From contig CM068825.1 of NCBI GenBank assembly GCA_028554795.2, forward strand, positions 153,342,053 to 153,406,052: a stretch of DNA of 64,000 nucleotides, read 5' to 3'. The position numbers and the translations under genes were made by a program. The first letter of the stretch is position 1. The number at the start of each line of letters is the position of its first letter. Below are positions 25,101 through 62,807 of this stretch, one piece after another. The notes under the pieces were generated by a model that did no database searches, had not been told where the DNA came from, and worked only from the letters and a program-made list of their open reading frames with translations. Origin of the DNA: Sinohyriopsis cumingii (Eukaryota > Mollusca > Bivalvia > Unionida > Unionidae).

Positions 25101-28100
25101 TGGCCGAGCCATCTCCATCGACGAGGTGTGATGGTACTTGCGCCTGCTCTGTGCCGGAGTTCCTCGTTAAAGATCATGTTTGGCCAGAAGATCCTCATGA
25201 TCCATTGCAGGCACTTGGTCTGGTGTTAGCAGTGGTCTTCCAACACTCTGACCTGTACAAAAGGACGCTCAGCACGTTGCTCTTGAAGATACGGGTCTTC
25301 GTGTGGGCGCTGAGGTTTGTTGTTCTCCTGGTGGGCTTCAGCATTGCGAAGGCCTGGTTGGCCTTGCTGATTCTTGTGGTGACTTCCCTTGTGCAATCTC
25401 CATCCGTGGCATCCTTGCTGCGGAGGTATGTGAATTCGTCTACTTCTTGCAGAGGCTAGCCATTGATGGTAATTGGGTCGCCCACTCTAGTGTTCTTCCT
25501 CAAGACTTGTGTCTTCCCTATGTTGACTCGAAGACCTATGGTGCTTGCTGTCTGTACCAACTGTTGTGTCTTCTGTTGGATATCCTGGTGTCTGCTTGCC
25601 AGCAACCCGTTGTCGTCGGCATAATCCAGGTCATCCAGCATTGAGGTCAGCGTCCACTGTATTCCTTGCCTCCTGCCCTCTATGGTGCGGCGCATTATCC
25701 AGTCAATGGCCAGTGAGAGGAGGATCGGTGAGAGAATGCATCCTTGCTTCACTCCGGTTTCTACCTTGAATGGTTCAGTGAATAGGTTGTTGTGGATGAC
25801 TCTGCACTCAAAGTTCTCGTACAGGGGCCTGATGACGTTGACAAGTTTCTGGGGGATGCCGTAGTGTCATAGGATCTTCCACAGAGAGGCTCGGTGCAGG
25901 CTGTCGAAAGCCTTCTCAAAGTCCACAAAGACCATATAAAGGGATCCATTCCACTCATGGGACTACTCAAGGATCTGTCTCAGAACGAAGATGTGGTCGA
26001 TGCAGGATTTGCCCTTCCTAAAGCCTGCCTGTTCCTGGCGTAGGATGCTGTCCACAGCTGTTGTGATGCATTGGAGGATGATGTGACTGAAAATCTTACT
26101 GGAGATGGATAGTAAGGTGATTCCTCGCCAGTTGTTGCAGTTCCCCAGATCTCCTTTCTTGGGAAGTTTGACGATGATTCCTGTTTTCCAGTCATTTGGT
26201 GCTTCTTCACTATCCCAGATCTTTTGGAGACTCTGGCAAAGAAGCTGTGGTGTCTTTGTGTCTTCTGCCTTCAGCATCTCGGGACATACTCCATCATCGC
26301 CAGGTGCCTTCCCATTCTTCAGCTTGTGGACGGCCTGCTTGACCTCCTCAACAGTGATGTCGTCGCACTTGATGTCAAGGTCCTCCTCTGCTTCAGGAAT
26401 GTCAGCGAGTACTGGTGGGTCTGGGTGATTCAGTATGGACTTAAAGTGTTGCTTCCGTCTCTTCAGCTTCTCTTCCTCCTCAGTGACAAGAGTTCCATCT
26501 TCATCACTCACTGGAAGGTCGTGGTGCTGGCCATAGTCGCCCTTCAGCTTCTTGGTGTTCTGGTACACCGTCTTCATGTCTTTCTGCTCTGCTGCTGCCT
26601 CTGCCTCCTTTGCCAGTCTCTCTGTGTATTTTTTCCTGTCTCTCCTTGCTGATTTCTTCACCTCCTTGTCTTTTCCTCTATACTCCTTCGAAATTCTCTC
26701 TTTCAGTCTTGGTGACTTGGAGTCCAAAAGCCTCTTCTTAATCTGTCTTCTCTCGTCTATGCGAGTCCACGTCTCTCCTGATATCCACTCTGTCTTCTTA
26801 CTATTCCTATAACCTAAAACTACTTCTCCTACTTCCCTCATTACTCTGTTGAAATTGTCGATGGTCAGAGCTGTCTCATCTTCTAGAACACTAAACCTAT
26901 TCCTTAGGGCCAGCCTAAATTCTTCCTTCACTTTTGGATCTTTCAGCTTGGCCACATCGAAGCGCTGATTCCTGGAGACCCCTATTCTAACTTTCCTAAG
27001 CTTCAAAGTCACCTTGGCCACCAGAAGACTATGGTCGCTGCCGATGTCAGTGTGCCGCATCACTCGCACGTCCTGCAGGGATTGTTTCCATCAGCCATTG
27101 ATGATGATGTGGTCAATCTGATTCTGAGTTCTGCCGTCTGGTGACGTCCATGTGAGCTTGTGGATGTCCTTGTGCTCGAACAGGGTCCCTCCTATGACCA
27201 AGTCATTCTCTTCACAAAAGTTGACCAGTCTTTCCCCATTGTCGGTCATCACATCTACTCCATGGTGCCCCATGGTCCTCTCTCTGTCTTTATTGTTGCA
27301 GCTGACCCTAGCGTTGAAGTCATCAAGTAGCAACAGCACATCATGTCAAGGGACGTCCTCTAAAACGGTTTGAAGAGCGTCGTAGAAGGTGTCTTTGTCC
27401 TCTTCTTCTGCGTCGTCTATTGGTGCATAGGCCACAACAACAGACAGCTTGGCGTACTTGGAGTTTATCCTGATGCACAGCAGGCGCTCATTCACTGGTT
27501 TCCACTGTAGAACGGTATTGGTCTTGTTCTTGCTGATAATGATGGCGACCCCCTCCCGGTGGTCATAAGTCACAGAGACCCTTAATTTAAGTGCTTTAAG
27601 TATATTAGAGTTGTCAAATGGTCACGTTTTAATAATTTAATATATTTAAACATTGATTGTCACTTCCAATAGTAATTATTAATAATTTAATATATTTAAA
27701 CATTGATTGTTACTTCCAATAGTAATTATTAATAATTTAATATATTTAAACAGTGATTGCCACTTCCAATAGTAACTATTAATAATTTAATATATTTAAT
27801 CAGTGATTGCCACTTCCAATAGTAATTATTAATAATTTAATATATTTAAATATTGATTGTCACTTCCAATAGTAACTGTTAATAATTTAATATATTTAAA
27901 CATTGATTGTCACTTCCAATAGTAACTATTAATAATTTAATATATTTAAACATTGATTGTCACTTCCAATAGTAACTATTAATAATTTAATATATTTAAT
28001 CAGTGATTGCCACTTCCAATAGTAATTATTAATAATTTAATATATTTAAACATTGATTGTCACTTCCAATAGTAAGTATTAATCTGTGCTCTCTGACACA

Positions 28101-38443: not shown

Positions 38444-38963
38444 GAGCCATAGAAATACACTATATCTGTGTACATGCATGTTACCATGATAATAATTTGT
38501 TTTGCAAGGCATTTGTCACCTTAAAGCAGTGTTTGAAGAAAAAAGATGAGTCTTCTTCCAAATATGTTAATAACTAACCAGTAGGGACACCCAAAAACAT
38601 CTAGCTATAGTGAAATTATGTTTCTATTCTTAGCACTATACTTTCAGGGATATTTGAGCTGTACATACAAGTTCTGAAATTCATTTTGTTCTTGCTTCCA
38701 TTTGAAAAAAATCCATATCCCCAGTTAAGTAATTGTTTGGTTTTTTTAAAATTTTTTTGTTGAATGAATGAATCTAGTATTGACATATCACCAGATTAGA
38801 GAGATTTTGAGATAAAATAGATTTAGAATTTGAAGATAATACTGTTTTTTTAATTAGAATACCAATAGAAAATATAATTTCTTCAAATAGAACATGATAG
38901 ACTTAAACAGAACCGGTTAATTTAGTAATAAAGTAATTGGTCATGATATTCATGATCAGCATA
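37603..38963 (+). other. Intergenic sequence between lipase B and satellite
   Basis: AT-rich, no recognisable gene. Includes an (AT)n tract at 38405-38441. Confidence 0.6.
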
Positions 38964-41900
38964 CAAAATCAAAACCATACATGTTATTAATAAAGTTAGA
39001 TTTGAATGGAGACAGTGTTGTTACAAAACCAAAACCATACATGTTATTACTTAATAAAGTTAGATTTGAATGGAGACAGTGTTGTTACAAAATCAAAACC
39101 ATTCATGTTATTACTTAATAAAGTTAGATTTGAATGGAGACAGTGTTGTTACAAAATCAAAACCATACATGTTATTAATAAAGTTAGATTTGAATGGAGA
39201 CAGTGTTGTTACAAAACCAAAACCATACATGTTATTACTTAATAAATTTAGATTTGAATGGAGAGAGTGTTGTTACAAAATCAAAACCATACATGTTATT
39301 ACTTAATAAAGTTAGATTTGAATGGAGACAGTGTTGTTACAAAACCAAAACCATACATGTTATTACTTAATAAAGTTAGATTTGAATAGAGAGAGTGTTG
39401 TTACAAAATCAAAACCATACATGTTATTACTTGATAAGGTTAGATTTGAATGGAGACAGTGTTGTTACAAAATCAAAACCATACATGTTATTAATAAAGT
39501 TAGATTTGAATGGAGACAGTGTTGTTACAAAACCAAAACCATACATGTTATTACTTAATAAAGTTGGATTTGAATGGAGTGTTGTTACAAAATCAAAACC
39601 ATACATTTTATTAGATAATAAAGTTAGATTTGAATGGAGACAGTGTTGTTACAAAATCAAAACCATTCATGTTAATACTTAATAAAGTTAGATTTGAATG
39701 GAGACAGTGTTGTTACAAAACCAAAACCATACATGTTATTACTTAATAAAGTTAGATTTGAATGGAGTGTTGTTACAAAATCAAAACCATTCATGTTATT
39801 ACTTAATAAAGTTAGATTTGAATGGAGACAGTGTTGTTATAAAATCAAAACCGTACATGTTATTACTTAATAAAGTTAGATTTGAATGGAGACAGTGTTG
39901 TTACAAAATCAAAACCATTCATGTTATTACTTAATAAAGTTAGATTTGAATGGAGACAGTGTTGTTACAAAATCAAAACCATACATGTTATTACTTAATA
40001 AAGTTAGATTTTAATGGAGAGAGTGTTGTTACAAAATCAAAACCATACATGTTATTACTTAATAAAGTTAGGTTTGAATGGAGACAGTGTTGTTACAAAA
40101 TCAAAACCATTCATGTTATTACTTAATAAAGTTAGATTTGAATGGAGACAGTGTTGTTACAAAATCAAAACCATACATGTTATTACTTAATAAAGTTAGA
40201 TTTTAATGGAGAGAGTGTTGTTACAAAATCAAAACCATACATGTTATTACTTAATAAAGTTAGATTTGAATGGAGACAGTGTTGTTACAAAATCAAAACC
40301 ATTCATGTTATTACTTAATAAAGTTAGATTTGAATGGAAACAGTGTTGTTACAAAATCAAAACCATACATGTTATTACTTAATAAGGTTAGATTTGAATG
40401 GAGACAGTGTTGTTACAAAATCAAAACCATACATGTTATTAATAAAGTTAGATTTGAATGGAGACAGTGTTGTTACAAAACCAAAACCATACATGTTATT
40501 ACTTAATAAAGTTAGATTTGAATGGAGTGTTGTTACAAAATCAAAACCATACATTTTATTACATAATAAAGTTAGATTTGAATGGAGACAGTGTTGTTAC
40601 AAAATCAAAACCATTCATGTTAATACTTAATAAAGTTAGATTTGAATGGAGACAGTGTTGTTACAAAACCAAAACCATACATGTTATTACTTAATAAAGT
40701 TAGATTTGAATGGAGTGTTGTTACAAAATCAAAACCATTCATGTTATTACTTAATAAAGTTAGATTTGAATGGAGACAGCGTTGTTACAAAATCAAAACC
40801 ATACATGTTATTAATAAAGTTAGATTTGAATGGAGAGAGTGTTGTTACAAAATCAAAACCATACATGTTATTACTTAATAAAGTTAGATTTGAATGGAGA
40901 CATTGTTGTTACAAAACCAAAACAATACATGTTATTACTTAATAAAGTTAGATTTGAATGGAGAGAGTGTTGTTACAAAATCAAAACCATTCATGTTAAT
41001 ACTTAATAAAGTTAGATTTGAATGGAGAGAGTGTTGTTACAAAATCAAAACCATACATGTTATTACTTAATAAAGTTAGATTTGAATGGAGACAGTGAAG
41101 TTACAAAATCAAAACCATACATGTTATTACTTAATAAAGTTAGATTTTAATGGAGAGAGTGTTGTTACAAAATCAAAACCATACATGTTATTACTTAATA
41201 AAGTTAGATTTGAATGGAGACAGTGTTGTTACAAAATCAAAACCATTCATGTTAATACTTAATAAAGTTAGATTTGAATGGAGACAGTGTTGTTACAAAA
41301 CCAAAACCATACATGTTATTACTTAATAAAGTTAGATTTGAATGGAGTGTTGTTACAAAATCAAAACCATACATTTTATTACATAATAAAGTTAGATTTG
41401 AATGGAGACAGTGTTGTTACAAAATCAAAACCATTCATGTTAATACTTAATAAAGTTAGATTTGAATGGAGACAGTGTTGTTACAAAACCATACATGTTA
41501 TTACTTAATAAAGTTAGATTTGAATGGAGTGTTGTTACAAAATCAAAACCATTCATGTTATTACTTAATAAAGTTAGATTTGAATGGAGACAGTGTTGTT
41601 ATAAAATCAAAACCGTACATGTTATTACTTAATAAAGTTAGATTTGAATGGAGACAGTGTTGTTACAAAATCAAAACCATTCATGTTATTACTTAATAAA
41701 GTTAGATTTGAATGGAGACAGTGTTGTTACAAAATCAAAACCATACATGTTATTACTTAATAAAGTTAGATTTTAATGGAGAGAGTGTTGTTACAAAATC
41801 AAAACCATACATGTTATTACTTAATAAAGTTAGATTTGAATGGAGACAGTGTTGTTACAAAATCAAAACCATTCATGTTAATACTTAATAAAGTTAGATT

Positions 41901-43437
41901 TGAATGGAGACAGTGTTGTTACAAAACCAAAACCATACACGTTATTACTTAATAAAGTTAGATTTGAATGGAGTGTTGTTACAAAATCAAAACCATTCAT
42001 GTTATTACTTAATAAAGTCAGATTTGAATGGAGACAGTGTTGTTACAAAATCAAAACCATACATGTTATTAATAAAGTTAGATTTGAATGGAGAGAGTGT
42101 TGTTACAAAATCAAAACCATACATGTTATTACTTAATAAAGTTAGATTTGAATGGAGACATTGTTGTTACAAAACCAAAACAATACATGTTATTACTTAA
42201 TAAAGTTAGATTTGAATGGAGAGAGTGTTGTTACAAAATCAAAACCATTCATGTTAATACTTAATAAAGTTAGATTTGAATGGAGAGAGTGTTGTTACAA
42301 AATCAAAACCATACATGTTATTACTTAATAAAGTTAGATTTGAATGGAGACAGTGAAGTTACAAAATCAAAACCATACATGTTATTACTTAATAAAGTTA
42401 GATTTTAATGGAGAGAGTGTTGTTACAAAATCAAAACCATACATGTTATTACTTAATAAAGTTAGATTTGAATGGAGACAGTGTTGTTACAAAATCAAAA
42501 CCATTCATGTTAATACTTAATAAAGTTAGATTTGAATGGAGACAGTGTTGTTACAAAACCAAAACCATACATGTTATTACTTAATAAAGTTAGATTTGAA
42601 TGGAGTGTTGTTACAAAATCAAAACCATTCATGTTATTACTTAATAAAGTTAGATTTGAATGGAGACAGTGTTGTTACAAAATCAAAACCATACATGTTA
42701 TTAATAAAGTTAGATTTGAATGGAGACAGTGTTGTTACAAAACCAAAACCATACATGTTATTACTTAATAAATTTAGATTTGAATGGAGAGAGTGTTGTT
42801 ACAAAATCAAAACCATACATGTTATTACTTAATAAAGTTAGATTTGAATGGAGACAGTGTTGTTACAAAACCAAAACCATTCATGTTATTACTTAATAAA
42901 GTTAGATTTGAATAGAGAGAGTGTTGTTACAAAATCAAAACCATTCTTGTTATTACTTAATAAAGTTAGATTTGAATGGAGACAGTGTTGTTACAAAACC
43001 AAAACCATATATGTTATTACTTAATAAAGTTAGATTTGAATGGAGAGAGTGTTGTTACAAAATGAAAACCATACATGTTATTACTTAATAAAGTTAGATT
43101 TTAACGGAGAGAGTGTTGTTACAAAATCAAAACCTTACATGTTATTACTTAATCAAGTTAGATTTTAATGGAGAGAGTGTTGTTACAAAATCAAAACCAT
43201 ACATGTTATTACTTAATAAAGTTAGATTTGAATGGAGAGAGTGTTGTTACAAAATCAAAACCATACATGTTATTACTTAATAAAGTTAGATTTTAATGGA
43301 GAGAGTGTTATTTCAAATGAAAACCATTCATGTTAATACTTAATAAAGTTAGATTTGAATGGAGACAGTGTTGTTACAAAATCAAAACCATGCATGTTAT
43401 TACTTAATAAAGTTAGATTTGAATGAAGACAATGTTG
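38964..43437 (+). repeat. 64-bp satellite array, about 70 copies
   Basis: Head-to-tail monomers of 64 bp beginning AATAAAGTTAGATTTGAATG and continuing GAGACAGTGTTGTTACAAAA, (T/C)CAAAACCATACATGTTATTACTT. Variants include two 60-bp forms (loss of ACTT before AATAAAG, or loss of ACAG within GGAGACAGTG), GAGAGAG for GAGACAG, and TTTTAATGG for TTTGAATGG. Marker variants recur at fixed larger offsets: CAGTGAAG at about 41091 and 42349, and CATTGTTG at 40901 and 42159, both 1,258 bp apart. That indicates block duplication. The array starts about 1.4 kb past lipase gene B. The roughly 78-98 residue ORFs are artefacts of three 64-bp units making 192 nt. Confidence 0.98.
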
Positions 43438-45870
43438 TATCGATATTCAATATGAGAGTCTTCACACTGCATCAAATAAGTATATATAGATTTTGCCATG
43501 ATTACAAGTTGCCAAATTTAAAAAGCAAAAACTTGAAAATAAGCACCACTGACCAAATTTGCATCATGTCTTTAAGACAAGTTTAGTGAATTTGCTAAGG
43601 CATTAAAATCGTTCAATGTATTGATCACTGATAAGGTTTTTGTTTACAAAATTAAACACTTAGGCTCATCTATTCTATATTAACTACCCCGCCAGAAAAA
43701 ATGCTATAAATGGAAGATTTCATATATAGGATGCTTGTATTTACAATGCATGTGCAGCATTGTTGGATGAGATGTATCGGTGTGGTTGTATCCATATATT
43801 AATATCTAATTTTACGCCGCGTTGATGCCTTGGTGTGTTGTTATACTTGTACTTTTTCCAAACTTCTCCCAAAACAAATGACTATTCTGCATCTTTTAGT
43901 GACTGAAACTATATAACTTGTATCCCCCGCCAACTATTCCAAGAATAAGATTGGTACTTTCAAAAGGAACCAAGGATACAAGAGTAATGGTAAGTAACAA
44001 AGCTTTAACTGAGGTTAATATACATGAAATTTGTGAGAAGGAAGGAATTTATTTTGTTTCGTGCATAATACCTTCGGTTGCATGATTTGTTTCAAAGGGT
44101 ATTGTTAAACATTTTTTTGTGTATGAAGTGATGGCGCTGTGTTGTATAGGACATGAAAGTTTTATAATCTCATAAAGAAGAGTATGATGGAAGCAGAAGT
44201 AAAAGGAAAAATAATTGCTAAAGGGGTAGGTAACTGTTACCTACATTGCCTTGTAAGTGATACATATTCCAAAAGGAACACAGTGATACAAATGAATGGA
44301 AGGACTTGTCATATGTACCTTAGAATAAATAACAATAGAAAGCAAAGATGAAATACAGGTAGATCTGTTAGGTATCAAGATATAACTGGAGGGTAAGGTA
44401 TACTGCTTTTACATCAGATTTCACAATTGTAGTTTATACAGTATCAATACTAAATGAGCTGTGGTTGTTAAATGTTTATAAGGCATGGTTCATCAATTAA
44501 ATATAGTAGACCCAGATGTTTGTACCGTTCTTTCATTAATGAAACTATTTATTTCAGTAAAAGTAATACCATATAAACATTTAAAATGCATTATGATAAC
44601 TAACTGCTCATCACCTAATGTTACTGATTTGATAAATGAAGTAATATCTTGAGTTTTAGCCCGCGATGACCAACCTTAGTTCCAAACACCCAGATTTTCT
44701 CAACTGAGGATTTTACAATCATGCGTGTCCATGCTTTTAAACCCGCTTGAGCCCAAGCAGAATGTTCATGGAGTGACCCAGCATTTTGCCTGTAGGTAAC
44801 ATAAGGCAGTTTTATACAGTTCTGTGAGCTCACAGGCAGATTGTTGCATATACCAAAAGATCGATATAGGCTGGCAGTGCATAATGACATGCTATTAGAG
44901 AACTATATAGAAATATTATGTACATTACTAATAGAAACTCTACCATTTGACACACACAATATTGTAAATGACTCCACATCTGTGGCTAATGTGAGAATTA
45001 AATTAAACAACCAATGGTGTGTTAACATCTTAGAAAAGATTAACTAGCTGTTAAGCCTGAGTGTGTCTTATTATCTTAAAGGCCCCAAATATCCTATATA
45101 ATTTATTCAAATATGTATCCAGATCGCCTTGATAAATTAACTGGATTTGGGATTGTGTTGGAGTGAGTATGGCGAAACATAGCAAAGAATATAATAAAGT
45201 GTCAGAAAAGTCATTACTTAATATTGTACAAGTAAACTTTTAGTGCCTGTCTTTAACTGAGTTGCCAGTAAATGAAGACATTGAAACCTCTAGCAAAAGG
45301 ACTCAAAATGTCCAGCGAAGACAACAATGATTTTGCAATATCTAGGAAAGATGATGAAGATTAAGAACGAAGATCTTCATCTATCACTGTCAAGGACAAA
45401 TTAATCAGAGAAATTCTTTCAAGAATAAAAATACCAATGGAGGTTACACAAATGCACGACAATGTATTTACTTGCAGCAAGAAACGGTATCAGACAATAA
45501 TAGACAACGCATGTGCAGGCAGGAATATGGTCTCATATCTGTTAAAGTATATTCAAGTGCAAAGACACAAGTACTACTGAATCAGTACACAAACACTGCA
45601 ACACATTTGCAATTATTGGGCAATAGGTGGTCACTTACAAGCTGATGTTATTGCATAGTAGTGGCAATTATACAGTGATTTGGCCTAATACCACATGAAT
45701 ACAATTTTATATGAGCAACAAAATATATTCCCAGTTAGTCTGCAGTCTTTGAAGCCTGGTTTCAAAGCTTGTTTACAAAATGCTACCCTGATTTTTATTA
45801 TAGGTGAAAGGTATTTTAAGGCTGATGATCATATGATTAAATACTATCTACTGTTGTATACTCTGAAACA
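43438..45870 (+). other. Unassigned sequence right of the satellite
   Basis: AT-rich, with only short ORFs (for example 43359-43586 running out of the satellite, 44841-45047 and the start of 45695-46066). I recognise no domain. Ancient repeat debris is likely. Confidence 0.5.
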
Positions 45871-52763: not shown

Positions 52764-53212
52764 AACAGGAATGTCAAGGTTGCCAAGGTGTCCGAAATAT
52801 GTATGAAGACATCAAACAGGAATGTCAAGGTTGCCAACGTGTCCGAAATATGTATGAAGACATCAAAAAGTACATGAGAATGACTTAAAAGGACGAAAGA
52901 CTTTGGCCACAACTGGGAGACTAGGAAAAACGGGGTTGACAATTAGGAAAGACTTTGGCCACAACTGGGAGACTAGGAAAAACAAGGTTGACAATTAGGA
53001 AAGACTTTGGCCACAACTGAGAGACTAGGAAAAACAGGGTTGACAATTGCGAAAGACTTTGGCCACAATTGAGAGATAGGAAAAACAGGGTTGACAATTA
53101 CGAAAGACTTTGGCCACAACTGAGAGACTAGGAAAAACAGGGTAGACAATCACGAAAGACTTTGGCCACAACTGAGAGACTAGGAAAAACAGGGTTGACA
53201 ATTAGGAAAGAA
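52764..53212 (+). repeat. Two adjacent 52-bp minisatellites
   Basis: First, two copies of a 52-bp unit with CAGGAATGTCAAGGTTGCCA (52766, 52818). Then about six copies of a different unit of about 52 bp with GAAAGACTTTGGCCACAACT and GACTAGGAAAAACAGGGTTG. Both lie inside the Gypsy remnant, between its RT start and RNase H parts. Confidence 0.85.
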
Positions 53213-56110: not shown

Positions 56111-56753
56111 GATAGATGAAAGGATGCACACATATAGATAGAGTAAAGGGTGAACCTGATTGAAAACAGTCAGAACAGCTCGTGTTGAACGATTAGACTG
56201 GTGACAAAAGAACTGTTTAAGTTTCTGATAGTATACGGAAAAATCTCCCATTCAACAACGGGAATGTGACCTGAAGAAACTGAGACTAAACTTTTGGAGA
56301 ACAAAGTTTAGGCGAAGACTTTTAATGGCCATTGCCCACATGCACGGAAAGATGATATTTTTGTTGCGGGACAAAGTTTTATGACAGCAGAGTGTAATAT
56401 GTTTGTAGCCGGGTCTAATTGGATCTCGCGAAGACATTAAATGCAATTACGTAAATGAGATATTTATTCATAACGCATATGAATGATGATTGTATCTGAC
56501 ACCTTACACATGTGCATGAGTAGTGAATGGGGATACCCTAGGGACAATGGGACTTAGCATTAAAAACACCCCTGGGACAATCTAGGGACAATGGAAATTT
56601 AACATGGAGAAAAATCGTGGGTCACTGTAGGGACAATGGGAATTTAACATGGAGTTTGGGTTTGTCTAGGGACAAGGGGAATTGAACATGGGATTTTTTT
56701 TTAAAAAATTTTTTTTAAAATTTAAATTTAAATTTAAATTTAAAAAAGGGGTA
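56111..56753 (+). other. Non-coding left flank of the polymerase element
   Basis: From 56,525 to 56,695 about four degenerate copies of a unit with CTAGGGACAATGGGAATTTA ACATGG occur. They are followed by a T/A-rich palindromic run (AAATTTAAATTTAAATTTAA) to 56,747. The left border of the virus-like element should lie somewhere here, but no terminal inverted repeat partner is visible in the window. Confidence 0.45.
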
Positions 56754-56791
56754 GGCAATTGAAAGGCTATCTCTTTTCGAGAAATATGGGT

Positions 56792-56807
56792 GGCCCTGAA
56801 AAGGGCC
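56792..56807 (-). terminator. Histone-type 3' stem-loop after the small basic ORF
   Basis: On the minus strand, 24 nt past the TAA stop at 56832: AAAGGCCCTTTTCAGGGCC then ACCCA. It has a 6-bp stem, a TTTC loop and the ACCCA 3' flank of replication-dependent histone mRNAs, which are cut, not polyadenylated, after SLBP and U7 snRNP binding. A purine run (CGAAAAGAGATAG) 12-15 nt downstream fits the histone downstream element. The 57-bp block 56754-56810 is repeated, inverted, at 57887-57944. Confidence 0.8.
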
Positions 56808-56831
56808 TTTGGGTTTATGTTAATGTATTCA

Positions 56832-57065
56832 TTAACATAAAGGGCACCGCATTGGTCTTCTTCTTGTCCTTAGGCTGCGTCTCACTGTTGGCCCGTAAAT
56901 CAGGACTCTTTTGAGGCATCCTTGCCTCTCCACGTAAATCCTACGTATCCACAGACTGGTGTTTGTCCTGTGGACAACGGTCCACTTGGATCGGACATAC
57001 ATGAGCATGTCCGTCCTGAACATCATGGAAGACACAAGCGTAGAAGATTGCACATCGGTCCACAT
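56832..57065 (-). CDS. Small basic protein of unknown function (77 aa)
   Basis: No family recognised. The product is Arg-rich, especially in the C-terminal half (RRSLRTRRRPMRCPLC), and has no membrane segment. Support for its being real is structural. There is a TATA box (minus strand TATAAATA, 57117-57110) 45 bp before the ATG, with a TCA initiator-like site about 31 nt downstream of it. The stop lies 24 nt before a histone-type stem-loop. It is divergent from the coiled-coil gene at 57285 across 219 bp. Small Arg-rich proteins occur as DNA-condensing core proteins in several DNA viruses, which is only a thought here. I compared the reading frames with core histones and saw no convincing match. 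A chance ORF remains possible. Confidence 0.5.
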   Translation of the reverse strand: MWTDVQSSTLVSSMMFRTDMLMYVRSKWTVVHRTNTSLWIRRIYVERQGCLKRVLIYGPTVRRSLRTRRRPMRCPLC

Positions 57066-57284
57066 CTTGAAGCGACGAGAACAGGTGAATCAATGCAGTG
57101 AACTGCGCTTATTTATAGGTAGAGGAAGGATTGAAACGGATTGAGTTCATTCACCAATCCAAACACGCGTTACAAAATTCAGTCAGCCCGCATCCAATCC
57201 GAAGAGAGCAGTCTGTGACGTCACGTAGTCTATATAGATTCGCTAGCGCTTGTGTGCAGTCAATCTATGCAACAGTGATTCAAC
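57066..57284. promoter_or_regulatory. Divergent histone-like promoter
   Basis: 219 bp between two divergent ATGs. It contains TATAAATA on the minus strand (57117-57110), TATATAG on the plus strand (57231-57237), a perfect palindromic CRE/ATF site TGACGTCA (57216-57223) eight bases before the plus TATA, and two CCAAT motifs (about 57153 and 57194). The plus gene has TCA at 57260-57262, 31 nt after its TATA. Paired CCAAT boxes, TATA boxes and short 5' leaders in a divergent layout resemble histone gene pairs. Confidence 0.7.
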
Positions 57285-57860
57285 ATGACGGAAATTCAGA
57301 AAACGATCCATTGGGGTGCACCAACAGGGGAGACTGCCCAAGGGAACCCGGACTTACTTTCAGAAGAGGTGAATTGGGATTTTGTGGATTTTCTCTCCTC
57401 GCAAGAATTTGTTCCGGAACCTTCGTTACCTTCTTCATTACCGCAAGTGGAGAATGTTAGACAGAGACAGAAAGAAGAATTGGAGAAATTTATACAACGA
57501 CAAAAGGAAGCGGAACAGGTTTTTCTCCTACAGCAACAGCAGCAAGAAGAAGAGGTAAGAAAAAAACAACAGCAACAACAGCAAGAAGAAGTAGCAGCAA
57601 AGAAACAGGAGGGTGAAAATCAAACGGTCACGGTACTGTTGGACATTTTAGCGGAGTTAAGAAGTCTGAAACAAATGTATCAGACTTCTTTATCACGACC
57701 GAAGAGAATACGACCTTCCCGAGCTAAACACGTCAACCCTGTGACTAAGCCTACCGTACCACCCTTAGTGATTTCAACCCAATCATCATCAACGTTACGC
57801 AGTCCAGAAGTAGGCCTTGGCCGTGGCAAAGGCTTAAGGCAGTTAAAGTTGATTGCTTAA
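57285..57860 (+). CDS. Gln/Glu-rich coiled-coil protein (191 aa)
   Basis: No family recognised. The acidic N-terminus (residues 1-55) is rich in Trp/Phe/Pro (VNWDFVDFLSSQEF). A long Gln/Glu/Lys segment (about 57-112) with QQQQQEEEVRKKQQQQQQEE should form a coiled coil. The C-terminus (about 135-191) is basic and Pro/Ser-rich (RPKRIRPSRAKH) and could bind nucleic acid or act as a nuclear signal. The ATG is the first in frame after TATATAG at 57231 and the TCA initiator-like site at 57260. The stop is 28 nt before a histone-type stem-loop. The gene is paired divergently with the 77-residue ORF. A structural or scaffold role in the virus-like element is conceivable but not shown. Confidence 0.7.
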   Translation: MTEIQKTIHWGAPTGETAQGNPDLLSEEVNWDFVDFLSSQEFVPEPSLPSSLPQVENVRQRQKEELEKFIQRQKEAEQVFLLQQQQQEEEVRKKQQQQQQEEVAAKKQEGENQTVTVLLDILAELRSLKQMYQTSLSRPKRIRPSRAKHVNPVTKPTVPPLVISTQSSSTLRSPEVGLGRGKGLRQLKLIA

Positions 57861-57888
57861 ACTCACCCCTACACCATAAAGAAAAAAA

Positions 57889-57904
57889 GGCCCTTTTCAG
57901 GGCC
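57889..57904 (+). terminator. Histone-type 3' stem-loop after the coiled-coil ORF
   Basis: AAAAGGCCCTTTTCAGGGCC then ACCCACA, with a 6-bp stem and TTTC loop, 28 nt past the stop at 57860. The purine-rich CGAAAAGAGATAG at about 57917-57929 stands where U7 snRNA would pair. Together with the copy at 56792 it brackets the divergent gene pair in mirror symmetry. There is no AATAAA between stop and stem-loop. Confidence 0.83.
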
Positions 57905-57944
57905 ACCCACATTTCTCGAAAAGAGATAGCCCTTCAATTTTGCC

Positions 57945-58154: not shown

Positions 58155-58607
58155 TTAGTCTCTCTGTTTTTTGAATTTTTTCACCGTCACACTCTTTTCC
58201 TCTTCTTCCTCCTCCTCGCTTTCTTCCCTTCTTCTTTTTTTCTCCTGTTTCTTTTTCTTCACCTGTCTTTTTTCTTCCTCAGAAGAATCCCTCTCTTCCT
58301 CTGAAGAATTCCTCTTTTCTTCTGACTCCTCTTGTTTCTTTTTTGGGCAATCTGGAGACCAATGTCCTTTTTCTTTACAATAATAACAGGTATCTTGACT
58401 TTTGCCTTTTTTAGCCCCTGTTTTCTTTCTTTTTTGACGGTCTGGACACTCTGAAGACCAATGCCCTTTCTTCTGACAGATATAGCAAGTATCTTGACTC
58501 TTATCTCGAAAGGAAGGAGAGTAGTCCGTGGGCTGGTCTGAAGAGAATTTTCTAGTGACCCCTCGCAAAGCTCTGACGAAACGTTCGATTTGGCTAGTCT
58601 CTTCCAT
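58155..58607 (-). CDS. Double CCHC zinc-knuckle protein with charged tail (150 aa)
   Basis: Two zinc knuckles of the pattern CX2CX4HX4C: C41-C44-H49-C54 (CYICQKKGHWSSEC) and C74-C77-H82-C87 (CYYCKEKGHWSPDC), joined by a Lys-rich linker. Such knuckles bind single-stranded nucleic acid, as in retroviral nucleocapsid and cellular RNA-binding proteins. Residues 90-150 are runs of Ser-Glu-Glu and Lys/Arg, a disordered charged tail. The ATG at 58607 is chosen because a TATA box (minus strand TATATAAAAAG, 58671-58661) lies 54-64 bp upstream, with TCA sites 28-38 nt after it. The reading frame stays open a further 16 codons upstream without an ATG. It is transcribed divergently from the DNA polymerase gene. 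No protease or RT adjoins it, so it is not a gag remnant. Confidence 0.8.
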   Translation of the reverse strand: MEETSQIERFVRALRGVTRKFSSDQPTDYSPSFRDKSQDTCYICQKKGHWSSECPDRQKRKKTGAKKGKSQDTCYYCKEKGHWSPDCPKKKQEESEEKRNSSEEERDSSEEEKRQVKKKKQEKKRRREESEEEEEEEKSVTVKKFKKQRD

Positions 58608-58742: not shown

Positions 58743-61700
58743 ATGAAACGATCCTATTCATTCGAGAATAAAGAAGAAGAAGAAAGTAAGAGGCAGAAAC
58801 GTGATCTATCGCCTCGAACCAGGGCTGAAATCTTGGCACAAATTCATGCCAGTGATTTTGAAGAGGACATGAGTGAACCGGAATTTGAAACCTCTAAACC
58901 AAGTTCACCACCCTTAGTCAACCCTGAAAAATACTATTCCATTCGAGAGACGGAAAAGCGCTCCTCTAGAAAATTTAGAACCACGGCTTACACCTACACG
59001 GTGAAGTTTAAAGATTTCAAGGCCGACGTACCCTTGGAGAAAGCAGAAGGGTTTATCACCGAGATGTGGGATTCTTTGCTTACCGCACTCAAACGACAAT
59101 GTCAACCCAAAGAAGACGATCGCTTGACACTATCCATAGATCACGACGGTTTGAAATCCCCTGTTTGGATCGAGTTTAGCAGACCCGCAGAACTAACCCC
59201 TTCCAAAGTCATGGACAAGATTCAACACGTACAACAATCTAATGACCAGTTTGACATCACCGATGGTAAAGCCACACTGAAAATGGCCCACTTCTCTCCT
59301 CCTCAAGGGACTGGACGCAAAAAGATGTTATTGGTGGACGACCTTCGCAACACCAAAACAAGTCTCGTCCGAATTAACAACCCTCAAGACCAGATGTGTT
59401 TAGCCCGTGCCATCGTGGTGGGACGAACCTATGCCAACAAGAACGACACGGTAGAATGGAAAAGAACCTGGGAGAACATTCGAAAATCGAACCGAACCAA
59501 ACAACGAAACGAAGCAGAACTCCTCTTGCAACAAGCTGGCCTGTCCAAAGACACACCCTGTGGCATTCCTGAGATGCAAAAATTGCAAGATGCCCTAGCT
59601 CCACGCTACACCTTGAAAGTGCACCCTCAAGAAATGCGCGGGCCTCTGTTGTTTCGAGGCCAAGATTTTAAGGACGGAAAATACATTCATGTCTATTATC
59701 ACGATGAACATTTCGATACCATTACCAGTATCACTGGATTCCTGGGATACGGTTATTATTGTGAGAAATGTGACTATGGTTATAATAATCGAGAGCAGCA
59801 CAAACATTGTGGATGGAAATGCTCAGGATGTTTGGCCTCTCCACCCTGTCTGAGCGAAGAACCAGTGCCTTGTTCAACTTGTCTGCGCACGTTTGTCAGC
59901 CCTACCTGTTACCAACAACACTTGAAGACGCAAGGTTCACAGAAGAAATGCTCTTGTCAACTGCTGAGATTGTGCCCCGCGTGTAGACAAGGCATACGTA
60001 CCAATAGTACCAAGGCACACGTATGTTCAGGAAAGAAAAAATGTCACATTTGTCACCACATCGTGGACTTGGAACACCAATGTTACGTGCAAAAATACCA
60101 ACCCCCACCAGAGAAAGAGGACGGTCACAAGAAGAAAGGCAATTTCATCTTTTTCGATTTCGAATGCATGCAAGAGACCGGCATTCACATTCCTAATTTC
60201 TGCGTGGCTCATCGAGCGTGCGAGAAGTGCATTCAAGAACCTATCTTCAGTCATTGCCCTTACTGCAGCAAGATTCCTGGAGGGCGTGAAAAAATCTTTC
60301 GGGGACCGAACACGTTAGCCGATTTTGCCCAATGGGTTTTAGACCCCATCGACAAGACGTGGAGCCAAGAGGACATCGAACGTTACGGAGATTGTCATCG
60401 TCATGCCACGGTGATGGCTCACAATTTCTCCGGATACGATGGACAGTTTCTTTTGAGGTACTATACGGAACATGGCACCGAACGTCCTAAAGTGACTTTG
60501 AACGGTGCCAAAATCATTTTCATGCAAGTGGGACAAGTACAGTTTAAAGATTCGATGAGCTATTTGGCCATGCCTTTGAGTCGAATGCCTAAAACGTTTG
60601 GAATGACAGAAATGGCTAAAGTGTACTTTCCACACTTTTTCAATACGGAAGCCAATCAACATGCCGTTCTACCCCATTTGCCTGAGGCTCACTATTACGA
60701 CCCCGACAACATGCGTACCGAACAACGAGAAGCTTTCTACGCTTAGTACCAGGCTCACGCCTCGGACCCCTTCGACTTTCAGGAAGAAATGCTAAAGTAT
60801 TGTCGTTCCGACGTGGACATTTTACGACGTTGCTGTGGAAAATTTCGAGAACTGTTCATGGAACACGGAGGGGTCGATCCTTTGAAAGAAGCTTGCACCA
60901 TTGCCAAAGCGTGTTCCTTAGTGTACCGACAACGATTCATGCCTGAAAACACTGTAGCTGTCATCAGCCCACAAACGACCCACTATGTCAAGCGTCAATA
61001 CTCGGTCAAAGCCCTACGTTGGTTACATTACTTGTGCGACAAGGAAGACAAATGGATTCAGCATGCCCGCAACGGAGGAGGCGAAAAGACCATCGGAACG
61101 TATTCGGGCGATGGCTGGGACTTAGAAAACCCCAAGATCGTGTACGAGTTTAACGGTTCCTTATTTCACGGATGTCCCGTCTGTTACCCTGACCGTGGCA
61201 CTAGAAATCAGTTTTTGCAACGAACCATGGAAGACTTGTACCAGGACACTTGTCAGCGACGCCTAAAGTTGGAACAGCAAGGATACCAAGTGGTGGAAAT
61301 ATGGGAACACGAGTACGATCACCGTATGAAAACCGATCCCGAGTTTAAACGCCTCGTGGAAAGTTACCAGTTCATGGACCCACTGAACCCGAGGGATAGT
61401 TTGTACGGAGGAAGGACCAATGCCACCTGTTTGCTGTACCAAGCCGACGAAGAGAAAGGAGAAGAAATCAAATACTTGGACGTGTGTTCGCTGTATCCCT
61501 ACGTGTGCAAATATTGTCGCTTTCCTGTAGGGCACCCGCAATTGCTGACGGAACACATTGACCTGAAAAACATTCGACAATACGAAGGCTTGATCAAGTG
61601 TAAAGTTTTGCCTCCCACGAACCTATACCATCCCGTTTTACCTCACCATTGTCAAGGCAAACTGATGTTTCCCTTGTGTCGTACTTGTGCCGAAACGTGC

Positions 61701-62807
61701 AACCAAGACCAACCTTGTCAGCACACCCAGGAAGAACGGGCCTTGACGGGAACCTGGGTCAGCGTAGAATTGTTCAAAGCTCTGGACATGGGATACCAAC
61801 TGTTAGAAGTGTACGAAACTTGCCACTTTCCCAAGACACAACAGTACCACAAGGGTGATCCCAGTCAGAAAGGCATTTTCGCCGACTACGTGGATGCCTT
61901 TTTGAAACTGAAGCAAGAAGCCAGCGACTATCCTTCCTGGTGTCACACTCCCGAAGACCAAATACAATTCAAAGAGAAATACTACGAACAAGAAGGCATC
62001 ACTTTAGACCACATCGAGAAAAACGAAGGCAGACGGTCGTTTGCCAAAGTGATGTTAAATTGCTTGTGGGGTAAAATGGCACAACGCACGTGTTTACCCA
62101 AGACGGAATATTTGACAGAACCTTCCCGCTACTTCCAGATGATTCACGACAAAACCAAATACATGAAACACGTGGACGTCGTTCGAGAGGATTTGATCTT
62201 GGTCAATTACGAAGAAGATCTGGACTTTGTACAAGACGACTCTTTTGGAAATGTCATCATTGCGGCTTACGTGACAGCCCATGCTCGCTTAAAATTGTAC
62301 GAAGCTTTAGAACTGTTAGAAGAACGCGTCCTGTACTTTGACACGGACAGTTGCATTTACATCCATCACCCGATTCAACATCACCCTGACATCGAAGGAG
62401 ACCGTTTAGGAGCCTGGACAGACGAGCATCCCGACGACAAGATTCTAAGTTTCGTCAGTGGTGGTCCCAAAAATTACGGCTACGAATACCGGGACAAACA
62501 AGGAGAAGTGCACACGACGTGCAAAGTGAAAGGACTGACTCTGAATTATCGTACCAGTCGAGTGGTCAACTTTGGGGTATTGAAAGAAGCCTTGCAATCG
62601 GGAGAGGATGGAGACTTTAAAGTGACCACCTGTCAACCGAACAAGATTGTACGTTTACCCACTCACCACATCGTCAGTCGACCATTGCAAAAAGTCTATC
62701 AAATCGTGTACCAGAAGCGAGTGAGACTTCCCAATCACTTTACGTTGCCGTACGGTCACGTCGGTATTGGTCTGTATATAAAAAGGAACCCTAGGCAAGA
62801 TCGATAG
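58743..62807 (+). pseudogene. Protein-primed family B DNA polymerase, interrupted by one in-frame TAG
   Basis: Family B polymerase of the protein-primed type found in Polintons, adintoviruses, adenoviruses and linear plasmids; it would replicate the linear element. It reads in one frame from the ATG at 58743 to the TAG at 62805-62807, with a single stop, TAG at 60744-60746, and no frameshift. Exonuclease: motif I FFDFE (Asp472, codon 60156-60158), motif II NFSGYD (Asn561, Asp566), motif III YCRSD (60798-60812), just after the stop. Polymerase: motif A LDVCSLYP (Asp codon 61479-61481), motif B KVMLNCLWGK (from 62046), motif C YFDTDS (62334-62351), then KVKGLTLN. Residues about 335-450 form a Cys/His-rich region with many CxxC pairs, known from Polinton-like polymerases. 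The N-terminal 300 residues may hold the terminal-protein-like part. The stop falls between Exo II and Exo III, so the first 667 residues alone would lack polymerase activity. All catalytic motifs look preserved, so the break is recent, suppressed, or a sequencing error. Confidence 0.88.
62775..62783 (+). promoter_or_regulatory. TATA box of BIR gene inside polymerase 3' end
   Basis: TATATAAAA followed by AGG, 65 bp before the BIR ATG and still inside the last codons of the polymerase ORF. TTCATTG at 62808-62814 stands about 35 nt downstream as a likely initiator. Confidence 0.65.

Follow-up and report, generated by a model that had tools for sequence, protein, structure and literature searches.

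Histone-type mRNA 3'-end signals on non-histone genes of a Polinton-like element in the genome of Sinohyriopsis cumingii

Two non-histone genes of a virus-like mobile element, here called A and B, end in the stem-loop and purine-rich downstream element that are typical of replication-dependent histone mRNAs, and in other copies of the element two further genes, C and D, are followed by a stem-loop of the same type. We consider it likely, with a probability of roughly 80%, that some of the element's accessory genes (A to D) have their mRNA 3' ends made by the host's histone pathway, a reading drawn from sequence. That non-histone genes might borrow this machinery was the core of the original prediction for this DNA, and as a reading it is supported by the signals themselves, by their match to the host's own histone genes and by their conservation.

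Two histone-type 3' ends in the window

The window, that is the whole 64-kb stretch of DNA that was analysed, would contain one copy of a high-copy adintovirus/Polinton-type element with the following features (positions are those of the window):

56530..56766, no strand: terminal repeat side, AT-rich and with tandem GGGACAATGGGAATT-like repeats, immediately outside the gene A stem-loop
56767..56812, minus strand: gene A's histone-type 3' end, consisting of stem-loop, ACCCA and the downstream element AAAAGAG (RF00032 42.5 bits)
56832..57065, minus strand: gene A, an ORF of 77 aa, very basic (pI 11.6), C-terminal end RRSLRTRRRPMRCPLC; two database relatives
57066..57284, no strand: divergent A/B promoter region with TATA boxes both ways, CCAAT boxes and one CRE (TGACGTCA)
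57285..57860, plus strand: gene B, 191 aa, with a long helix predicted at residues 53-136 and a tail that is conserved; 20 database relatives
57884..57929, plus strand: histone-type 3' end of gene B (RF00032 41.8 bits)
58155..58607, minus strand: zinc-knuckle gene (zf-CCHC), convergent, without stem-loop; ATTAAA 32 nt past the stop
58743..62807, plus strand: Adintovirus/Polinton-type DNA polymerase B in two ORFs (58743-60746 and 60789-62807) with an in-frame stop between them, without stem-loop
62840..63577, plus strand: BIR (inhibitor-of-apoptosis) gene directly after the polymerase, without stem-loop (PF00653, E 1.3e-23)

When all of Rfam was run over the window, exactly two matches lay above the cut-off, both to RF00032, whose gathering score is 34 bits; the covariance-model search of both strands that had been proposed as a check thus found the A site (E 3.2e-9 over the 64-kb window) and the B site (E 6e-9). 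Both align to the model from end to end with the six-pair stem intact, and a separate window-wide stem-loop scan returned the A and B sites only. Each reads stem GGCCCT, loop TTTC, AGGGCC, ACCCA and then AAAAGAGA, at a stop-to-stem distance of 24 nt for gene A and 28 nt for gene B, and in the element's sites the purine-rich AAAAGA(G) lies 14 nt past the stem. The arrangement that had been described from the letters alone, a stem-loop, ACCCA and a purine-rich element at these two distances, is therefore borne out by the layout and by the model. The inverted arms (56757-56810 and 57886-57939) are 54 nt long and 96% complementary, and the original prediction was right about the existence of such a pair, its exact coordinates being a few nucleotides off.

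As had been stated, neither the 77-aa nor the 191-aa ORF is a histone: Pfam has no histone match for either, and it names no known function for them. The relatives of gene A are P0141 (79%) and P0142 (78%), and its ORF precedes the stem-loop in many copies. Because the contigs of P0141 and of the gene B relative P0010 are equal in length (both 1455 bases) and come from the same source, another species has probably kept the A/B pair as well. AlphaFold2 predicts the B protein to be essentially one long helix (mean pLDDT 68, pTM 0.25). Among the 30 best copies of gene B, which were chosen by the B protein irrespective of any stem-loop, 29 have the CRE within 230 nt upstream, and the combination of CRE, CCAAT and TATA elements fits an early, growth-linked A/B pair, without being proof of one; no promoter motif was found within 250 nt of gene C in four loci. 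The idea of histone-like promoters was abandoned, as A and B have CCAAT, TATA and CRE but the five host histone promoters lack a full CRE. Nor can all stem-loop genes be taken as encoding histone-like packaging proteins: A (pI 11.6) and C (9.2-9.7) are basic, but B is near neutral (7.9), and both D (5.9-6.2) and the zinc-finger protein of the contig L001 described below (6.5) are acidic.

The second ORF of the polymerase matches PF03175 at 101.5 bits and the first at 23.7 bits, just below the 25.8 cut-off, and relatives of the second include PolB-C of a Rhodactis coral adintovirus (44%). The Saccostrea echinata PolB database entry P0087 likewise bears a BIR domain. Elsewhere in the window there are a 64-nt tandem array of about 71 copies that are 92% alike (38962-43438), in which the ORFs are repeats of METVLLQNQNHTCYYLIKLDLNG, a 52-nt tandem repeat of about six copies (52893-53211) and a 365-aa ORF (25963-27060, minus strand) with a reverse-transcriptase match (PF00078, E 1.1e-5, 25.7 bits) that is below the 29.6 cut-off.

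Host histone genes and other copies of the element

The genome that contains the window is 2.9 Gb in size and has its histone genes in tandem units of about 8.3 kb, from one of which five genes (H1, H2A, H2B, H3 and H4; L050, L096) were compared with the element. Their stems are of the GGCCCT type, H1 carrying a U-A pair where the other four carry C-G, and their loops are TTTT (H3, H4), TTTC (H2B, H1) or TTTA (H2A). All five have AAAAG(A) after the stem, at 14 nt in H3, H4 and H2B and at 15 nt in H2A and H1. The layout is the same as in the element and the H2B stem-loop is identical to the element's over its 16 nt, so that the element carries what the host histone machinery reads. The RF00032 scores of the five genes are 35.0-39.4 bits; the element's best sites, at up to 45.6 bits, are the top matches in the genome and lie above all five, and many further copies of the element score 34-37 bits. 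Histone array genes occur in both orientations on one contig (G000 contig C1058).

For the comparison with host U7, the downstream elements of the host histones served as a stand-in; AAAAGA(G) would match CUCUUUU, the general U7 sequence. Rfam found no host U7 in the 2.9-Gb genome, a weak search as the genome is intron-rich, and in a similarly weak pattern search three matches were obtained as against 12 with the reversed control, and none of the three had a 3' hairpin that was convincing. A six-frame Pfam search for host SLBP found none, an uninformative result in an intron-rich genome of this size.

The original prediction also turned on whether other copies of the element keep the stem-loops, and most of those looked at do. 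Of the 30 best B copies, 24 have a perfect gene B stem-loop and 26 a perfect gene A stem-loop. Among the six imperfect B stem-loops, two have a C to T change that leaves a G-U pair, three are otherwise altered and one is destroyed; for A, two are altered and two are without a match. At the cut-off, the first 20 of these loci gave 27 RF00032 matches, including an extra one in L026, and the remaining 10 loci gave 18. The extra site (L026:214-259, 38.4 bits) has no recognised gene upstream, and the A and B ends are present in that locus as well.

Across the genome, 75 RF00032 sites were scored out of 589472 candidates, a lower bound, and the best 28 of the 75 were inspected. A recognisable element gene or remnant was found at 27 of these, the remaining one (L088) being an element end alone, and at none of the 28 is the stem-loop preceded by a histone ORF. 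By type they comprise 14 gene A ends (three without a full A frame), two gene B ends, 11 gene C ends and L088. Gene C is rich in K and E, with frames of 129-204 aa preceding the stem-loop in L008, L009, L081 and L084 and shorter or broken frames elsewhere, and its RF00032 scores are 43.5-45.6 bits. The next gene upstream of C is gene D, with a length of 105-150 aa in four loci, and a second, D-type match is present in nine of the 11 C-type loci, at 30-31.7 bits and thus below the Rfam cut-off. The D stem is AGCCCT/AGGGCT in eight of these nine, the outer pair being mispaired in L005; the two C-type loci in which D has no RF00032 match are L008, whose D ORF is complete and whose stem is mispaired, and L084, with a D remnant.

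Gene B copies in the genome are 96-100% identical and 146 of 150 are without an internal stop (best 150 of 32799 first-look candidates). Among 150 listed B places and 150 listed D places there are nine B-D pairs within 60 kb, as against 0.9 expected by chance; in six of them B and D are on one strand, with D 17.5-21 kb downstream, and in the other three they are oppositely oriented and separated by about 50-55 kb. Each of the 11 C-side ends was compared with 12 A-side ends, including that of the window, and its best match had 77-96% identity over 203-516 nt. The inferred element has a length of about 20 kb or slightly more and carries A and B at one end, D and C at the opposite one. Because no stem-loop gene was found in the 3 kb at the expected right end of the window copy, where D and C would be, that copy may be truncated or of a different size. 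As for what kind of element this is, the clade-type B DNA polymerase of adintoviruses and Polintons is present, as are terminal inverted repeats, the latter seen in the ends of other copies (11 of 11), and together these support its description as Polinton-like. Viral contigs (IMG/VR) queried with PolB, alignments of B and of PolB and two stem-loop patterns yielded no relative.

A more distant version came from a PolB search of contigs from 84,980 prokaryote species, which found four related contigs (L001-L004) that we take for animal DNA inside bacterial assemblies. L001 encodes a PolB that is 37% identical to the window's, an rve integrase with a chromodomain, a TBP-like gene and a C2H2 zinc-finger gene, and its single RF00032 match (35.8 bits) lies 28 nt past the stop of the zinc-finger gene, with AAAAAAGAGA behind it; the product of this gene has no histone match in Pfam. 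An AATAAA is found 114 nt past the same stop, and the end of L001 has CCCATTGTCC repeats that by eye resemble those of the window element. The TATA-binding-protein homologue (PF00352; L001:7189-7695) is an observation in its own right on a polinton-type contig. L002, L003 and L004 have no RF00032 match, L003 being 3.6 kb long and L002 and L004 apparently lacking an element end.

Proposed processing and competing explanations

In the mechanism that we propose, host SLBP would bind the stem-loop in nascent A and B transcripts (and in those of C and D at the other end, in other copies), host U7 snRNP would base-pair with AAAAGA(G), cleavage would follow a few nucleotides after the stem and the products would be exported as non-polyadenylated, stem-loop-ended mRNAs. 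The zinc-knuckle, polymerase and BIR genes of the window are without the signal. The likely benefit would be that production of the proteins from genes with the signal is tied to S phase or active DNA replication, a time at which the host histone machinery runs and the element can be copied.

It is unlikely, though a possibility to be taken seriously, that the signals function alongside ordinary polyadenylation, giving mixed 3' ends and no strict restriction to S phase. Some histone genes make both kinds of 3' end, and AATAAA or ATTAAA is present in L001 and, within 200 nt past the stop, in 11 of the 30 best B copies (ten of these have it at +17, immediately ahead of the stem-loop). On the other hand, there is no such signal within 200 nt in the other 19 B copies and none within 250 nt of either A or B in the window. 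The absence of a poly(A) signal is itself weak evidence, because none was found within 250 nt of PolB or BIR either; of 26 copies of the zinc-knuckle gene, 25 have AATAAA or ATTAAA within 200 nt past the stop, most often at +32.

Pairing in the stem was compared across 29 sites (24 distinct), namely every C and D site with a match in the inspected loci, A and B of the window, one further B, L001 and the five histones. They share a 6-bp stem, a 4-nt loop and conserved flanks as in host histones, and 143 of 144 stem cells are paired over the 24 distinct sites, a number that is favoured by the sites having been found by a covariance model. Double changes occur at two pairs, the outer G-C to A-U in D and C-G to U-A in host H1, which may represent only two evolutionary events. 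Slid controls were at most 66% paired and had no double change, and none of 500 shuffles reached the covariation score.

A measure of conservation comes from 15 loci picked for a match to an A-side or unassigned end, 12 of which have a B end that was consequently not selected by its own stem-loop. The B stem-loop is perfect in eight of the 12 and altered in L073 (a G-U outer pair), L006, L011 and L082. Taking the 12 together with the window, the stem-loop is 95% identical, AAAAGA 100% and ACCCA 91%, as against 79-84% in the UTR before, between and behind the signals. For the 30 best B copies the corresponding values are 92% for the stem-loop, 100% for AAAAGA, 96% for ACCCA, 94% for the spacer and 82-83% for the flanks, so that here the stem-loop is only modestly more conserved than its flanks, a weaker contrast that is expected because the copies are young and partly decaying.

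It is very improbable that the block is instead a DNA-level part of the terminal inverted repeat, such as a replication origin, packaging signal or integrase site, that merely looks like a histone 3' end. The stem-loops of A and C are indeed found at the inner edge of these repeats, and two such copies could therefore stay alike by repeat homogenisation, but those of B and D lie away from the ends; moreover, where a readable gene precedes them, the stem-loops are sense-oriented and some 15-36 nt past its stop codon, their ACCCA and AAAAGA are spaced as in host histones, and their paired positions change together. We give slightly less credence still to capture of a histone 3' end by chance and its copying as a functionless passenger: the identical 16 nt in host H2B, the alteration of four of 12 unselected B ends and the recent, similar copies, much of whose identity is thus shared ancestry, would suit it, but the signal is kept by four gene types, one with a compensatory change, AAAAGA and the stem-loop exceed their flanks in identity, and the distant L001 has its own version. 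The last point and the four gene types also do not fit a random histone-cluster fragment inserted twice, which the original prediction had named among its refutations.

Relation to known systems and implications

With replication-dependent histone mRNAs and their SLBP/U7 pathway the element shares the stem, the loop, the ACCCA-type flank and the AAAAGA spacing, but its genes are non-histone and sit on a virus-like mobile element scattered over chromosomes. By common teaching, 3' processing of this kind is peculiar to replication-dependent histone genes. With adintoviruses and Maverick-Polintons the element shares a related PolB and terminal repeats, and L001 adds the integrase with rve and chromodomain, the TBP-like gene and the zinc finger; it differs in having accessory genes with histone-type 3' ends.

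Zinc-finger genes are present in some adintoviruses (PMC11071296), and in the main text of that paper the terms 'stem-loop' and 'polyadenyl' are absent. A 2025 scan of 8300 polinton-like virus genomes lists six histone 3'UTR stem-loops (RF00032) (PMC12220804), the same Rfam motif as here in polinton-like viruses and virophages. In the accessible portion of that paper these six are a bare count, with no gene, host comparison, downstream element, mechanism or discussion attached. The original prediction, which knew of no such description for Polinton-like elements, needs qualifying on account of this count.

We lean towards the broader view that certain animal virus-like elements, as a class, have shifted a block of their accessory genes to the host histone mRNA pathway, which would give them non-polyadenylated, replication-coupled mRNAs. 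If this is true, these would be, to our knowledge, the first non-histone protein genes to use the pathway as a conserved strategy. They would provide a natural test of how a stem-loop and U7 site function without a histone coding region. There would also be practical consequences, as RF00032 matches outside histone clusters in animal genomes could mark such elements and poly(A)-selected RNA-seq would miss their stem-loop genes. This would also point to a means by which a DNA element could sense S phase, and expression of a mobile element would then be coupled to the S phase of its host at the step of RNA processing.
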